Of a stretch of DNA of 64,000 nt, positions 18,753-43,486 are shown piece after piece (the stretch's first letter is position 1; every line of letters starts with the position of its first letter). A program made the position numbers and the translations under genes. The DNA is taken from positions 1-64,000 of the forward strand of contig JAIXYK010000001.1 in assembly GCA_027490225.1 (NCBI GenBank), in the 5' to 3' direction. The notes beneath the pieces were generated by a model. The model had not been told where the DNA came from. It saw only the letters and a program-made list of their open reading frames with translations, and did not search any database. This DNA is from Bacteroidota bacterium. GTDB taxonomy: Bacteria > Bacteroidota > Bacteroidia > M30B66.

Positions 18753-19445
18753 TTGTACTGCACATTAACCATTGCCCGTTATCCAAAGTATCTAGGCATT
18801 ATTGGATTTTTTTCCATGGCCATCTTTAGAATTCCATTAATTTTTAACAAAAAAATCAGTTTTTGGAAATTACTAGGTTGTGGTAAAAATGGAACATTTG
18901 ATATTGTTCCCGACTGGCAACAATGGTGCATTTTAAGGGTGCACTCAGATTTTAAACAATCTCAATTCTTGGGAAATTTCATAAGTAAATGGTATAAATT
19001 TTTTAAAGCGGAAGTTTTTACCATTGTCCTAAAGACAATTGAAGGACATGGAACTTGGGACAAATTTGCGTTTTTTACGGCTCAAGAAAAGAAAACGGAA
19101 TATACTGGACCAATTGCAGTATTAACAAGGGCAAGCATAAAAATTAGCAAGTTGAAATCGTTTTGGAAAAATGTTAAACCTGTTGCCAAACAGATGAATG
19201 CTTCAGAAGGATTCATTTTTTCTGTTGGATTGGGCGAGATTCCATTTATAAAACAAGCTACATTGAGTTTCTGGCAAAGCAAAAATCACATGCAGCAATT
19301 TGCTTATAACATGCATGTGCACAAAGCTGTAGTTAAATTAACGCACAAAGAAAAATGGTACAGTGAAGAAATGTTTGTGCGTTTTGAACCAATCTCAGCT
19401 AATGGTTTGTTGAATGGTGAAAATCCTTTGAATGGGATTTGCTGA
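18753..19445 (+). CDS. spheroidene monooxygenase-like (CrtA-family) protein
   Basis: About 230 residues. The order of conserved phrases follows CrtA: SFWKLLGCGKNGTF near residue 36, GPIAVLTRASIKISKLKSFW, GFIFSVGLGEIPFIKQATLS, FWQSKNHMQQFAYNMHVH and KEKWYSEEMFVRFEP. CrtA is a haem-containing monooxygenase that puts oxygen on carotenoids in purple bacteria; many Bacteroidota carry relatives of untested function. There is no ATG; a TTG at 18753 gives a natural N-terminus, with an in-frame stop at 18726. It stands alone, away from any carotenoid gene cluster in this window. Together with the rhodopsin at 42743 it points to an oxidised carotenoid, but substrate assignment is inference. Confidence 0.8.
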   Translation: MYCTLTIARYPKYLGIIGFFSMAIFRIPLIFNKKISFWKLLGCGKNGTFDIVPDWQQWCILRVHSDFKQSQFLGNFISKWYKFFKAEVFTIVLKTIEGHGTWDKFAFFTAQEKKTEYTGPIAVLTRASIKISKLKSFWKNVKPVAKQMNASEGFIFSVGLGEIPFIKQATLSFWQSKNHMQQFAYNMHVHKAVVKLTHKEKWYSEEMFVRFEPISANGLLNGENPLNGIC

Positions 19446-28455: not shown

Positions 28456-30006
28456 TTACAATTCATTAATATGCGAAAGGTAATGTTCAGCTTGTTGCAA
28501 TAGTTCTGTTTTGGCTACTGGTTCCATTTTTCTCCAAACATTGTACATCATACCTATTCGTGGATTTTTGGCCAATTTACTTTCGTGCTTATCATAAAAA
28601 TTCCAATATAAACTATTGAAAGGACAAGCTTTATCTCCCGTTTTTTTGGCTTTATCGTAATAACATCCATTGCAATATGAACTCATTTTGTTGATATAAG
28701 TTGCCGAGCTAACATAAGGTTTTGTACCTACAATTCCGCCATCTGCAAACTGACTCATGCCTCTGGTATTGGTTATTTCAACCCATTCAATAGCATCAAT
28801 ATAAATTCCCAAATACCAAGCATCCACTTCATCAGGATGCACACCTGCTAACAAAGCAAAGTTTCCAGTAATCATTAATCTTTGAATGTGGTGCGCATAG
28901 CCAAATTGCAAAGATTGATTAATCGCATTTTTCAAGCAATTCATCTTTGTTTTACCCGTCCAAAACCATTCAGGTAATGTTTCTGTGTGTTCAAAATAAT
29001 TGAGATGCGCATAGTCTGGCATTTTTAACCAGTAAATACCGCGCATGTATTCTCTCCAGCCTATAATTTGCCTCACAAAACCTTCTAATTGGTGATAGGC
29101 GATTTCATCAGTATTATTCAAATATGTTTCAATTGCTTTATCGACCACTTCCTTTGGTGAAAGCAGTTTTGTATTCATGGAAAAAGATAAACGAGCATGG
29201 TAAATTGACCATTCGTTCGGCGCCATTGCATCTTGAAAAGTTCCAAATAAGGACAAACAATTCTCAACAAAAAAATCCAATAATTGTAAAGATTGAGCTC
29301 TGTTTATTGGCCAAATAAAATGCTTACTATCAATGGTGCCAATGGTTTTAATATTGGCTTTTTGAATTTCCAATTCAATTAACTGCACATTATTATCAAA
29401 AAGTAATGGTGAAATAGGCTTGTGTTCTTTGGGCAATTTCTGGCGATTTTCCTCATCAAAATTCCATTTCCCATTTAAGGGTTTATCTCCATCCACAATT
29501 AAAACATGGTGCTTTTTGCGCATTTGCCGGTAAAAGGTTTCCATCAAATACATTTTTTTACCTTTAAATAAATCTCCTAATTCATTGCGGCTGCTATAAA
29601 AATGCTCCGTATCAAATACCTCAAATGGAATATTTAAATTGATTGTAAATTGCTTTAAATGTTCATCTACTCTGTATTCATCGGGCAGCTGGTATTCGAA
29701 TTTTGTGAAATTGTTTTTTGAGATTATTTCTTCACAATTCTTTTCAAAACTGTTTAAGTTATTTTCATCATTTAAATAAATATATTTTATTTGATGTCCA
29801 CGCGTAGTGAGCTCTTGAGCGAAATTCTGCATTGCAGCAAAAAAGCCAATTATCTTTTGAATATGGTGATGGGCGTAATCGGTTTCACTCCTAATTTCCA
29901 TTAAAACGTAGGTAACATTATCATTTACTTCATTGTACCATGAATGATTGATATTGAGTTGATCTCCTATTATTAAGCGTAAAATCTTTGGTGTTTCTTT
30001 TATCAT
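28456..30006 (-). CDS. FeS-type bacterial photolyase/cryptochrome (PhrB/CryB group)
   Basis: 516 residues with the start RLIIGDQLNINHSWY that marks this group. It binds FAD and a [4Fe-4S] cluster; the cluster ligands are visible in SSYCNGCYYDKAKKTGDKAC followed by PFNSLYW (three of the four Cys). The FAD region has RQIIGWREYMRGIYW and LMITGNFALLAGVHPDEVDAW. Relatives repair (6-4) photoproducts (Agrobacterium PhrB) or act as light sensors (Rhodobacter CryB). It is the third gene of an operon with a second, unrelated-type photolyase and DUF2071. (6-4) repair is the best guess. ATG at 30006; the gap to the DUF2071 gene is 45 bases. Confidence 0.93.
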   Translation of the reverse strand: MIKETPKILRLIIGDQLNINHSWYNEVNDNVTYVLMEIRSETDYAHHHIQKIIGFFAAMQNFAQELTTRGHQIKYIYLNDENNLNSFEKNCEEIISKNNFTKFEYQLPDEYRVDEHLKQFTINLNIPFEVFDTEHFYSSRNELGDLFKGKKMYLMETFYRQMRKKHHVLIVDGDKPLNGKWNFDEENRQKLPKEHKPISPLLFDNNVQLIELEIQKANIKTIGTIDSKHFIWPINRAQSLQLLDFFVENCLSLFGTFQDAMAPNEWSIYHARLSFSMNTKLLSPKEVVDKAIETYLNNTDEIAYHQLEGFVRQIIGWREYMRGIYWLKMPDYAHLNYFEHTETLPEWFWTGKTKMNCLKNAINQSLQFGYAHHIQRLMITGNFALLAGVHPDEVDAWYLGIYIDAIEWVEITNTRGMSQFADGGIVGTKPYVSSATYINKMSSYCNGCYYDKAKKTGDKACPFNSLYWNFYDKHESKLAKNPRIGMMYNVWRKMEPVAKTELLQQAEHYLSHINEL

Positions 30007-30051: not shown

Positions 30052-30765
30052 TTAAAAGCTATTTCGTTTCCAATCCACACTGATATCGGAACCTTCTGCA
30101 AGCATTACTGAATGAGGCTTTGACTTATTTAATGCCTCAAAATCATTTCCATAAAAAGCGGCAAAATCACAATTAATTTGATAATTATTGATGGTATTTA
30201 TTTCCCAACTCGGGTGATTAATTTTATATTCAATGCTCTTTTCAGAATTTACTTTCGTGTAGCCAAAATAATGTTCAAAAATGAATTCTTCTATGCTTTC
30301 AACTTCCATTTTGCACTTGGTAGTTGATGCAACTACTTGAATGCTATTCCATGATTTATTTACCTTCCATTGATATTCTACTTCTTTTCTATTTGCTGTA
30401 AAATTCCATTCATGCCGAGTAGGAATTGCGATGTAATGTTCCTTATACAGTTTATTGGCAACCCAAGCAACTAATTTATTTGGCACAGTTTCGTTGATAA
30501 AAACTACTCCTCGCCTATTTTCATTTCCCACTTTTCGAATTACATAAAAACGCAGATTTACTTCTTCAAATGTTCCCATATAAGGAATTGGAATTCCAAA
30601 AATAGTAGAGTCCTTAAATAAAAATCCAACCAAACTCACATAGGTTTTACCTTCAAAATAATCCAACTCAACTCCTTTGGGCAAATATGGTATCAAAATT
30701 TTCGGGTCAATTTCATAATTGGCCATGATTAAATTTTGCCAATTTGCCCTCAAAAAAGTTTTCAT
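30052..30765 (-). CDS. DUF2071 (YqjF-like) protein
   Basis: 237 residues. Hallmarks are the opening [50 protein letters not shown] and NLRFYVIRK, all typical of the DUF2071/YqjF family, a beta-rich fold related to acetoacetate decarboxylase-like proteins. Function unknown. The gene overlaps the stop of the upstream photolyase gene by four bases (ATGA), so the two are translated together. Placement between two photolyase-family genes suggests it belongs to a light or DNA-damage response in this genome; no enzymatic role can be read from the sequence. Confidence 0.9.
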
Positions 30766-32270
30766 AAAAGTTTGGTTTGATTTGTTTTTTTCTTTCTGGA
30801 AGTCTTCATTGGTGGATGATTTACATGTCTCGCTAAGATTCGAATTCCTTCTAATTTCACCTCTTCATTTTCTCTGAAACTCCAGACAATATCAGAGGCC
30901 CGCTTTCTTGTTTCTTCCACATCAACAATAGGGAACGGATAATGTTTCCCAATTTCAACATTGTACAGCTGTTGCTCAATTAAAGTGAGTTTATACGGCT
31001 CGTGAATTAAATTCGCAGGAACATCCTTTAATTCCGGAATCCATTGTTTAATAAACAAACCATCAGTGTCATGATCTTCTGAATTTTTTATAGGATTATA
31101 TATCCTAATGGTGTTTACGCCGGTTGTTCCACTTTGCATTTGCAATTGCGGGTAATGAATTCCTGGTTCATAATCTAAAAATTGCCTTGCTAAAAAATGT
31201 AATTCCCGCCAATCTTGCCAAAGGTTAAATACAAAAAAAGAAACGACCATGGCGCGCATTCTAAAGTTAATGTAACCAGTTGCCACCAAACAGCGCATAC
31301 AAGCATCTACTAAGGGAATTCCAGTTTGTCCGGTTTGCCAAGCTTTTATAAACTCTTCATTCTTAGGTTTAATTACAGCATTATAAGCCCGATTGATGTT
31401 GTCAAATTCATACCTGCTTTCATTTTCAAATTTTTGTATAAAATGGCAATGCCAATGTAAGCGAGAAATGAAATTTGAAAGCGCTCTTTTATTATTCGAA
31501 GCGGAATAATTTTGCTTAGTGTATTGATAAACCATGCGCATACTTATATTTCCGTAAGCTAAATATGGCGATAAACGACTACAACCTGTTCTGCTTAAAA
31601 GTGGTTTGCTGATATGCTTGCTATAGTTTACATGACGAACTTTAATGAAATTATCTAAATAGCGCCAAGCCCAGTATTCTCCGCCTTGCTGGAAGTTTTT
31701 GTTACGCGTGGGAATTTCAGGATTTAACTCCTCCCCTTTTAATGTTGTATAAATAGTATTTTCTAAAGAGAATAAATTCCAATTTTGTTCATCAACAATT
31801 TTTGGTGTAGAAAGCATTTTTTCTTCCCATAGTTTTTCCCAATGTTTCCTGTTTTTTAGTCCTCTGATAATTCCGTTTGTTTGGGATTCTATCCATTGAA
31901 TATTATTTTTTTTAAATAATACTTTCATGGCTTTGTCACGGGCGTAGGTTAAACCATTACCAATTTCTTCATGGGAATATATATATTGAATGGAAAAATG
32001 ATATATCAGTGAATTAAAAACAAATTCGGCTTCATTGTGAAAAATAAAAATTTGTCCATTTAATGGTTTCAATTTTTCATTCATTTCAATAAGTGACTCG
32101 TGCACGAATCTCCAATGCCTCACATCGCTGTCGTGATAACCCATCACAGACGGTTCGAAAATATAAATAAGCAAAAGAGGAAGAGATGATTGTTGCGCAA
32201 AATAAAGTGGTTCATGGTCAGTAAAACGCAAATCACGCTTTAACCAAACCACATTTATTTCTTGCTTCAT
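30762..32270 (-). CDS. cryptochrome/photolyase-family flavoprotein, divergent active site
   Basis: 502 residues with the N-terminal alpha/beta antenna domain ([20 protein letters not shown]) and the C-terminal FAD domain ([60 protein letters not shown]). Where CPD photolyases have WREF and the SNNGGWQW loop, this one reads SRLHWHCHF and [10 protein letters not shown], so the Glu and Asn that act in CPD repair are not conserved. It belongs to a separate, widely distributed branch I cannot name; photoreceptor or unusual photolyase are both possible. First gene of the operon, followed with an ATGA overlap by DUF2071. ATG at 32270. Confidence 0.88.
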
Positions 32271-38742: not shown

Positions 38743-39705
38743 TCAAAAATTTGATATCAACATGTAGTAAAGCGGCATTCCAAAAGTAATGTTAAATGGA
38801 AATGTAACAGCTAAGGCCATCGGTAAAAACAAGCCTGGATTTGCCTTGGGAACAGCAATTTTCATAGCAGCTGGAACAGCTATGTAAGAAGCACTTGCAG
38901 CCAAAACCGCAAAAATAAATCTGTTTCCAATATCATGTGTTACCAAACCACTAAGTAAAGCAACTGCACATCCATTTATTAATGGAACAATTACTGCAAA
39001 TAAGGCCGTAAACCATCCACCTTTAATAAAATCTCCTAATTTCCTGCCACTTACAATTCCCATATCTAACAAGAAAATTGCTAAAAAGCCCTTAAAAATA
39101 TCTGTTGTAAATGGTTTGATTCCTTGGGCTTGCTGGTCGCTGGCTAATAATCCAATAACCAAACTTCCTAAAATTAAAAGCACACTTCCATTAGTAAAAG
39201 AATGCCCAATAATAGATTTCATTTTAAGTGAAGTTGCGTTTTTTTCGCTGTAAAATTTAATTAACAATACTCCAATTATAATCGCCGGAGCTTCCATTAA
39301 TGCCATAACCGCAACCATGTGGCCACTAAAAGCAACTTTTTGAATATCTAAAAAAGAAACAGCTGCCACAAAAGTAACAGCACTCACAGAACCATAAGCT
39401 GCTGCTATCGCCCCTGCGTTATCTATACTTAATTTTCTTTTTAAAATAAAGAAGGCATAAACAGGAATCAAAGCTGCTACAGAAACTCCAAACAAAATGC
39501 TCCATATAATTTCTAAACTAAATTGACTATGCGCTAATTCCTGTCCTCCTTTAAAACCAATAGAAAACAATAAATACAATGAAATAAACTTAGATGAATT
39601 AGGTGGTATTTCTAAATCACTTTTTACAAGCACAGCAATCACACCTAACACAAAAAACAATAAAGCAGGATTGGTTAAGTTATCTAAGAGGATGTTAAAA
39701 TTCAT
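38743..39705 (-). CDS. sbtA: SbtA-type sodium-dependent bicarbonate transporter
   Basis: 320 residues, about ten membrane segments in two inverted repeats. It begins LTNPALLFFVLGVIAVLVKS and contains SKFISLYLLFSIGFKGGQEL, AAAYGSVSAVTFVAAVSFLD, APAIIIGVLLIKF and LLDMGIVSGRKLGDF, all typical of the SbtA family of Na+/HCO3- symporters known from cyanobacteria. The usual PII-like regulator gene sbtB is not adjacent. It is the last gene of an operon with a prohibitin-like protein, a small protein and DUF6671, opposite a LysR regulator. Na+-driven uptake of bicarbonate for carboxylation reactions is the likely role. Confidence 0.93.
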   Translation of the reverse strand: MNFNILLDNLTNPALLFFVLGVIAVLVKSDLEIPPNSSKFISLYLLFSIGFKGGQELAHSQFSLEIIWSILFGVSVAALIPVYAFFILKRKLSIDNAGAIAAAYGSVSAVTFVAAVSFLDIQKVAFSGHMVAVMALMEAPAIIIGVLLIKFYSEKNATSLKMKSIIGHSFTNGSVLLILGSLVIGLLASDQQAQGIKPFTTDIFKGFLAIFLLDMGIVSGRKLGDFIKGGWFTALFAVIVPLINGCAVALLSGLVTHDIGNRFIFAVLAASASYIAVPAAMKIAVPKANPGLFLPMALAVTFPFNITFGMPLYYMLISNF

Positions 39706-41719: not shown

Positions 41720-42640
41720 ATGAATTATACACTTCATCAACTGCAAGTTTTGCTAAAAGTAAGTCAAACTAAAAGCATCACAAAAGCAGCAGAAGAGTTG
41801 CATTTATCTCAACCAGCAGTATCTATTCAATTAAAAAATTTACAAGACCAATTTGAAATTCCATTAACCGAAGTAGTTGGTCGTAAGTTGTATATGACGG
41901 ACTTTGGGAACGAAATAGTTTTAGCAGCCGAAAACATACTTAATGAAGTTTATGCTATTAATTACAAGACTTTAATTTACAAAGGTCAACTAGCAGGAAA
42001 ATTAAAACTATCTGTTGTCTCTACTGGGAAATATGTAATTCCTTTTTTTCTTGCAGGATTTCTAAATAAGCACCAAGGTATTGAACTTGAAATGGATGTT
42101 ACCAATAAATCTAAAGTCTTAGAAAGCTTAATCAATAACAATGTTGATTTTGCTTTGGTTTCAGTGTTGCCTGAAAACCATTCTTATGGAAAAGTAGAGT
42201 TAATGAAAAACAAGCTTTATTTAATCGGTAATGCTGAAAAAAAATATGAATTGAAGAATACAAAAGAAATTTTTAAAAATATACCCTTGATATACAGAGA
42301 AAATGGCTCAGGTACCAGATTAGTAATGGAGCGTTATTTTCAAAAGCAAAACATAAAGGTAGTAAAGAAAATGGAGCTTACATCTAACGAGGCTGTAAAA
42401 CAAGCTGTAATCGCAGGGTTGGGCTGCTCTGTTATGCCTTTAATTGGTATCAAAAATGAATTGATTAGTGGCGATTTGCAGATAATTCCTGTAGCAGGTT
42501 TTCCAATAGAAAGCAGTTGGAATCTTGTTTGGAACAAATCGAAGAATTTTTCTGTTGCTGCAAGCTCATTTCTTAATTACATAAAGAATGAAAAAGACAA
42601 TATTATTGCCCAAAAATTTAGCTGGTTTGATAAGCATTAA
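41720..42640 (+). CDS. LysR-family regulator, CbbR/CmpR-like
   Basis: 306 residues: winged helix-turn-helix (1-60; LHQLQVLLKVSQTKSITKAA, HLSQPAVSIQLKNLQD) and a two-lobed effector domain (about 90-300; KLKLSVVSTGKYVIPFFLAG, YRENGSGTRLVME, AVIAGLGCSVMPLIGI). The effector domain resembles CbbR and CmpR, which control carbon fixation and bicarbonate transport genes in response to metabolites. It is divergent from the operon ending in sbtA with 89 bases between start codons, the classical LysR arrangement, so it most likely controls that operon. A bidirectional terminator separates it from the rhodopsin gene. Confidence 0.92.
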   Translation: MNYTLHQLQVLLKVSQTKSITKAAEELHLSQPAVSIQLKNLQDQFEIPLTEVVGRKLYMTDFGNEIVLAAENILNEVYAINYKTLIYKGQLAGKLKLSVVSTGKYVIPFFLAGFLNKHQGIELEMDVTNKSKVLESLINNNVDFALVSVLPENHSYGKVELMKNKLYLIGNAEKKYELKNTKEIFKNIPLIYRENGSGTRLVMERYFQKQNIKVVKKMELTSNEAVKQAVIAGLGCSVMPLIGIKNELISGDLQIIPVAGFPIESSWNLVWNKSKNFSVAASSFLNYIKNEKDNIIAQKFSWFDKH

Positions 42641-42678: not shown

Positions 42679-42717
42679 AAAAAAAGGGTTCATGTACTTA
42701 AACATGAACCCTTTTTT
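42679..42717. terminator. bidirectional terminator between lysR and rhodopsin
   Basis: Perfect stem of about 16 bp, AAAAAAGGGTTCATGT / ACATGAACCCTTTTTT, with a short loop (ACTTAA-like). A-runs on one arm and T-runs on the other allow it to end transcripts from both convergent genes. Confidence 0.9.
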
Positions 42718-42742: not shown

Positions 42743-43486
42743 TTATGCCATTGTTGTTTTTTTGTTTGTTTCAGCGATTGCAATTCCGTAAACTACTAAA
42801 CCAAATCCAATTTTATTAATTGCATCAGCTATGTTGTAGAATAAGTTCATGTCTTTTGGCTGTAAAACTCCGCTTAACCAACCACCTGGCATCGCCATGT
42901 AACCGATTGGATAAATAGCCCATCCAACTAAAACGAACCAAGCCAAAGCTCTGATTCCTTTTTGAACAGCTTCGTTATTGCTAGAAGCTGCTAATTTGTG
43001 CGCTTCACCTGCCCAAGCAGAATGTAAAATGTAAACATAACCAACTGAAGAGATAACACCCCAAATTACAGAATGTGCCATGCTACCATCAGTAAATGCT
43101 TCTCCAATATAACCTGCTACTAGCATTAATACTGAAGCCAATATCAATTTCCACATGAAAGCTGGTTTTGCTCCTGCAGGCTTCAATAATAAGTAAAACT
43201 CCAAGCACATCAACGGAACTGTTAATGTCCAATCGATGTAACGCAAAGCTGTTGGTGTTTCATTTGTTGCTGCATAATAATCGCGCATGTAATAGTAATG
43301 CACCGCTGCAATACCAGTAATTAATCCTGAGACTAATAATGAAGTTTTCCATTTTCCATCAACAGAACCTCTTTCGAAAAAGAAGAATACTGCAGCAGCA
43401 AGCATGGCCATGTAGCCAACGAAAAATGTAAAAATTACCGGGTCATCAACTGGGATGTTTACGATGTCAAGAAGTGTTGTTTTCAT
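42743..43486 (-). CDS. proteorhodopsin-type light-driven proton pump
   Basis: 247 residues, seven helices. Helix C reads RYIDWTLTVPLMCLE: Asp85 (acceptor), Thr89 and Glu96 (donor) form the DTE set of outward proton pumps, and Met93 at the tuning site predicts green-light absorption, as in other Bacteroidota. His63 in VHYYYMRDYY is the partner of the acceptor. Retinal binds Lys225 in IADAINKIGFG. At the place where proteorhodopsins have a bulky Phe on helix E, this protein has Gly143 (IWGVISSVGY), the opening that lets a carotenoid antenna contact retinal. No retinal synthesis gene (blh) is in the window. The gene is alone, with a shared terminator and the LysR-sbtA locus next door. Confidence 0.96.
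   Translation of the reverse strand: MKTTLLDIVNIPVDDPVIFTFFVGYMAMLAAAVFFFFERGSVDGKWKTSLLVSGLITGIAAVHYYYMRDYYAATNETPTALRYIDWTLTVPLMCLEFYLLLKPAGAKPAFMWKLILASVLMLVAGYIGEAFTDGSMAHSVIWGVISSVGYVYILHSAWAGEAHKLAASSNNEAVQKGIRALAWFVLVGWAIYPIGYMAMPGGWLSGVLQPKDMNLFYNIADAINKIGFGLVVYGIAIAETNKKTTMA

Follow-up and report, generated by a model that had tools for sequence, protein, structure and literature searches.

The DNA analyzed here (the window) is a stretch of 64,000 nucleotides from a Bacteroidota genome of 3.77 Mb in 66 contigs that is rated 100% complete. Its rhodopsin gene (42743-43486, minus strand) is a complete open reading frame, from ATG to stop, that encodes 247 amino acids and is matched by PF01036 (E 3.8e-43). 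Alignment equates its D85, T89, E96 and K225 with D94, T98, E105 and K233 of the xanthorhodopsin Kin4B8 and places M93, which is outside that mapping, at the tuning site; these are the residues that the initial annotation had named. The Bac_rhodopsin domain, the retinal lysine and the D-T-E triad place the protein among the predicted proton pumps of the proteorhodopsin family, and the triad, His63, Arg82, Asp221 and Lys225 are all invariant in a set of Bacteroidota homologues. From these aligned residues, we infer a light-driven outward proton pump. The protein falls outside the xanthorhodopsin family, as its closest sequences are those of proteorhodopsins and NM-R1, and it shares only ~28-35% identity with xanthorhodopsin-type chains. 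It is the product of the one rhodopsin gene in the genome; a weak second rhodopsin-like match on another contig (C56) is by sequence a Na+/H+ exchanger-like protein and was discarded as a chance match.

A long hairpin (42679..42717, no strand assigned), recognized from sequence and RNA fold and unlisted by a consensus scanner, lies between the rhodopsin gene and the convergent gene for a CbbR-like LysR regulator (41720-42640, plus strand); it is likely a bidirectional terminator. A gene for an SbtA-family bicarbonate transporter (38743-39705, minus strand) is also near the rhodopsin gene, and the window holds two photolyase-type genes (PF04244 and PF03441/PF00875) at 28456-30006 and 30762-32270, both on the minus strand. 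Since sbtA and photolyases are enriched in the "solar panel" profile of proteorhodopsin-bearing marine Flavobacteriia (PMC5932025), these genes would fit that profile by resemblance. Around 80 related rhodopsins, the synteny of the LysR, SbtA, DUF6671 and Band 7 genes is not conserved. Elsewhere in the genome (contig C42; L035 2213-4975, minus strand), two more photolyase-like open reading frames have a gene for a FolE-like protein and one for a CrtD/CrtISO-like oxidoreductase nearby.

The crtY-blh pair is found on another contig (C45; L020 1573-3662), apart from the rhodopsin gene. Among 72 related loci with enough flanking sequence, blh directly follows rhodopsin or stands behind crtY in 55, with crtY in between in 24; this recurring order makes the crtY-blh pair the likely source of retinal. 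The rhodopsin-(crtY)-blh arrangement is intact at most related loci and split in the genome studied here.

The side opening of the protein is marked by Gly143, located within the TM5 motif W142-G143-x-x-S146-S147 (codon at 43058..43060, minus strand, placed from the ORF start at 43486 and the alignment). This residue had been aligned by eye with Phe152 of proteorhodopsin and Gly156 of xanthorhodopsin, with the proviso that a bulky residue at the Phe152 position in a proper alignment would overturn the assignment. The gap-free alignment of TM5 places Gly143 exactly there and, in addition, at Gly153 of Kin4B8. The same column holds Phe in green proteorhodopsin (GPR) and Trp in the Med12 proteorhodopsin; it holds Gly in the fenestrated position of Salinibacter ruber xanthorhodopsin (XR), Gloeobacter rhodopsin (GR), Kin4B8, thermophilic rhodopsin and NM-R1, and the present protein belongs by this residue with the fenestrated rhodopsins. 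The numbering was checked with Kin4B8 residues named in PMC13093654 and PMC12308411: Tyr61, Asp94, Gly153, Thr157, Tyr204 and Asp229 correspond to Tyr64, Asp85, Gly143, Ser147, Tyr196 and Asp221. Position 143 is Gly in 91/91 Bacteroidota homologues (52-100% identity), which were picked by similarity and show conservation within the lineage, not the frequency of Gly among all proteorhodopsins. All four Gly codons are used (GGT 53, GGA 22, GGC 12 and GGG 4), and this invariance at the protein level argues that Gly143 is not a chance residue. Within TM5 (136-158), G143, S146 and Y150 are the sole invariant positions and are found on one face of the helix. The fenestration Gly by itself is no proof of a native antenna.

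Structural comparison provides the closest known relative. The best sequence match in the PDB is NM-R1 (9jov/9jou; 279 bits, clearly ahead of other proteorhodopsins), and a Foldseek search with the AlphaFold2 model (mean pLDDT 91.4) also returns 9jou first (57% identity, E 1.3e-17), an entry titled "zeaxanthin-bound light-driven proton pumping rhodopsin, NM-R1". With VIA-align, the Z score for NM-R1 (30.3) ties with those of other proteorhodopsin-type structures (30.4 and 30.2); what sets NM-R1 apart is thus its sequence identity, not the fold alone. Like the present protein, NM-R1 is a proton pump of the proteorhodopsin family with the fenestration Gly, a Tyr at the Kin4B8 204 position and a Met at the tuning site, the 57% identity extending over the whole protein; it differs in having Gly147 and Thr200-Pro201 (numbering of the present protein) in place of Ser147 and Pro200-Gly201. 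GPR (7b03/2l6x) shares the family, the D-T-E triad and the fold (Z 30.2), but its Phe152 shuts the opening and it carries no antenna. Kin4B8 (8i2z) shares the TM5 motif W-G-x-x-S-[S/T], Tyr204 and the D-T-E triad, whereas it belongs to the xanthorhodopsin family (~30% identity), has Ala at 205 and anchors carotenoid through Ser208-Tyr209. XR (3ddl) and GR (6nwd) have a Gly156-type opening, Tyr207 and a non-polar pocket bottom, as here, but are xanthorhodopsin-family binders of 4-keto carotenoids, for which no ketolase was recognized in this genome. Within the proteorhodopsin family, binding of lutein and zeaxanthin has been demonstrated for KR1 (Dokdonia eikasta) and EinA29G6 (PMC12308411); these two share the Gly and Tyr204 with the present protein, and carry Thr-Asp and Thr-Glu, respectively, at 208-209 instead of its Pro-Gly.

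The bottom of the pocket is where the present protein departs from these binders. The residues proposed to define an antenna site are the Gly, then Tyr204, then a polar pair at 208/209 for 3-hydroxy carotenoids (PMC12308411); the pair is Ser-Tyr in Kin4B8, Thr-Asp in KR1, Thr-Glu in EinA29G6 and Met-Ala in XR, and the S208A variant of Kin4B8 retains 2% of zeaxanthin binding, while XR and GR bind carotenoid despite a hydrophobic pocket bottom (PMC12308411). The Tyr is present as Tyr196 (codon at 42899..42901, minus strand, counted from the ORF start at 43486), at the Kin4B8 204 and XR 207 position, and is invariant in the 91 sequences. In place of the polar pair are Pro200 and Gly201 (codons at 42884..42889, minus strand, counted likewise), at the Kin4B8 Ser208/Tyr209 positions. 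The rhodopsin is therefore left out of the Kin4B8/KR1/EinA29G6 pocket type, and it may still bind 3-hydroxy-xanthophylls. In the model, the TM6 helix stops at about residue 197, and confidence is lower (76-78) over residues 191-210. Position 200 is Pro in 67 of the 91 homologues, Thr in 11, Asp in 8, Glu in 3 and Lys in 2. In a tree that has low deep support, most Pro-Gly sequences separate from the Thr-bearing group that includes NM-R1, and they mostly have Thr at position 147, as do Kin4B8, XR and GR; Gly occupies this position in NM-R1 and most members of the Thr group. The lineage with the Pro-Gly turn is large, with members in Hymenobacter, Algoriphagus, Belliella, Cyclobacterium, Saprospiraceae, Crocinitomicaceae and others, and we found no pigment-binding test for it in the searchable literature. 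Ser147 (Thr157-like) and Tyr196 remain in the pocket of the present protein. Binding may rely on another anchor, with the carotenoid hydroxyl held by other groups (e.g. Tyr196, Ser147 or the backbone), or it may be weaker.

The carotenoid genes of the host are consistent with a hydroxylated pigment. The initial annotation had pointed to a CrtA-like gene elsewhere in the window. This gene is indeed present (18753..19445, plus strand), and by homology and comparison with PMC11855829 it is a candidate carotenoid 2'-hydroxylase of the CrtA-OH type; its match to the spheroidene monooxygenase model NF045923 (E 3e-44) reaches 151 bits, below the cut-off of 300, which makes it a homologue and not an equivalog, and as support for an antenna it is weak when taken alone. 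It occurs in 5/40 genomes, this one included, is apparently broken by stops in a relative of the same family (G002, contig C5; L131, L132) and in the others has no adjoining crt genes within short flanks; it was rejected as a conserved partner of the rhodopsin. The same relative keeps CrtZ and a rhodopsin of identical pocket.

CrtZ, CruF, CrtD and CrtYcd, encoded on another contig, are better evidence than the CrtA-like gene. They form a crtD-cruF-crtZ-crtYcd cluster, in which crtD matches NF042421 (701 bits, cut-off 500), cruF is PF04240 and the lycopene cyclase gene crtYcd is PF18916; the cluster recurs in two of the three relatives checked, and the third has crtD-cruF-crtZ. No Pfam or NCBIfam model matched CrtZ, which was recognized by reading the crtD cluster and is 40-43% identical to the gene at the crtZ position in carotenoid clusters on Pantoea plasmids. 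The PF04116 model, which misses CrtZ, found instead two larger sterol-desaturase-type proteins, and these were rejected as CrtZ. The genome further has crtI (NF058655, 746 bits) and one PSY-family gene (crtB), which adjoins genes for a CarH-like regulator and an ECF sigma factor. The regulator (L019 6822-7766), of the MerR type with a B12-binding domain, precedes the sigma factor and crtB, and light control of pigment synthesis through it is probable. By gene content, CrtZ with a lycopene cyclase would give 3-hydroxylated carotenoids, and the genome holds the whole set for myxol (crtB, crtI, lycopene cyclase, cruF, crtD, crtZ and, by homology only, crtA-OH), which in Nonlabens spongiae yields myxol together with zeaxanthin (PMC11855829). 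The likely pigments are thus 3-hydroxylated, myxol-type and zeaxanthin. Two unrelated lycopene cyclases are encoded, one in the crtZ cluster (L032 11722-12453) and one beside blh (L020 1573-2766), an arrangement that looks like separate supplies of retinal and of antenna pigment. CrtZ accompanies rhodopsin in 10/10 relatives with a rhodopsin (p 0.001 against all 39 genomes). This co-occurrence is uninformative and was dropped as evidence for an antenna, because CrtZ is present in 22/24 genomes with a PF00494 gene anyway (p 0.33).

These results lead us to propose, with a probability of roughly 70%, a proteorhodopsin-family proton pump that carries a carotenoid antenna at Gly143, likely a 3-hydroxylated carotenoid made by the cell itself, and receives retinal from CrtY-Blh. 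On light absorption by retinal at Lys225, the Schiff base would pass its proton to Asp85 and from there outward, and Glu96 would re-protonate the Schiff base from the inside. Judging from solved relatives, Gly143 in TM5 would leave a side opening beside the retinal ring; a carotenoid positioned along the protein would insert one end there and pass its excitation to retinal. The antenna pigment would be the cell's own myxol-type carotenoid and zeaxanthin, and the separate CrtY-Blh gene pair would supply the retinal. That the pump uses an antenna, as first suggested for this gene, gains support from Gly143, from zeaxanthin-bound NM-R1 as closest structure and from the genes for 3-hydroxy-carotenoid and retinal; from these we infer binding.

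An unlikely alternative is that the fenestration of this proton pump is open but serves no functional antenna: the Gly would be kept for the shape of the retinal pocket or for helix packing, and carotenoid would bind too weakly, for want of the polar anchors, to have an effect. The loss of the Ser208/Tyr209 pair, read with the 2% binding of Kin4B8 S208A, speaks for it, and packing alone could account for the invariant G143, S146 and Y150 on one TM5 face. But the Phe and Trp of GPR and Med12 indicate that a pump of this family needs no Gly at this position, NM-R1 was solved with zeaxanthin even though its 209 position is Pro, and a hydrophobic pocket bottom does not keep XR and GR from binding carotenoid. 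These last two proteins raise the prospect of a 4-keto antenna of the salinixanthin or canthaxanthin type, as Pro/Gly at 208/209 is nearer to the hydrophobic Met/Ala of XR than to the polar pairs. We consider this very unlikely, since no CrtW- or CrtO-type ketolase was recognized in a genome rated 100% complete: the proteins that match FA_desaturase resemble acyl desaturases and an AlkB-like protein; candidates for CrtO score far below the cut-off.

That the protein senses light or transports another ion, and does not pump protons, appears extremely improbable. The solitary position of the gene beside a LysR regulator, with no adjoining crtY-blh, would suit such a role; the intact and invariant pump residues described above would not, nor would the association of related rhodopsins with blh, and no transducer gene was seen beside the rhodopsin. 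A hydroxylated-carotenoid antenna appears the likeliest use of the fenestration, because zeaxanthin-bound NM-R1 is nearest, the myxol gene set is present and no 4-ketolase was found. More tentatively, it is possible, if somewhat doubtful, that fenestrated proteorhodopsins with the Pro-Gly turn bind a host carotenoid, e.g. a myxol-like monocyclic pigment, in a mode absent from the solved complexes.

With carotenoid antennas, rhodopsin pumps can use a broader range of light. Bacteroidota are already known to have proteorhodopsins that bind an antenna, and the rhodopsin described here is a probable further one; less ordinary is the lack, as judged from the alignments, of the polar anchor across a large lineage. 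If the Pro-Gly lineage does not bind pigments, the fenestration Gly predicts poorly when taken by itself, and surveys that depend on it give counts that are too high. If the lineage does bind them, antenna pumps gain cultured genera, e.g. Hymenobacter and Algoriphagus, and the polar-anchor rule for the binding of hydroxy-carotenoids becomes testable in nature.
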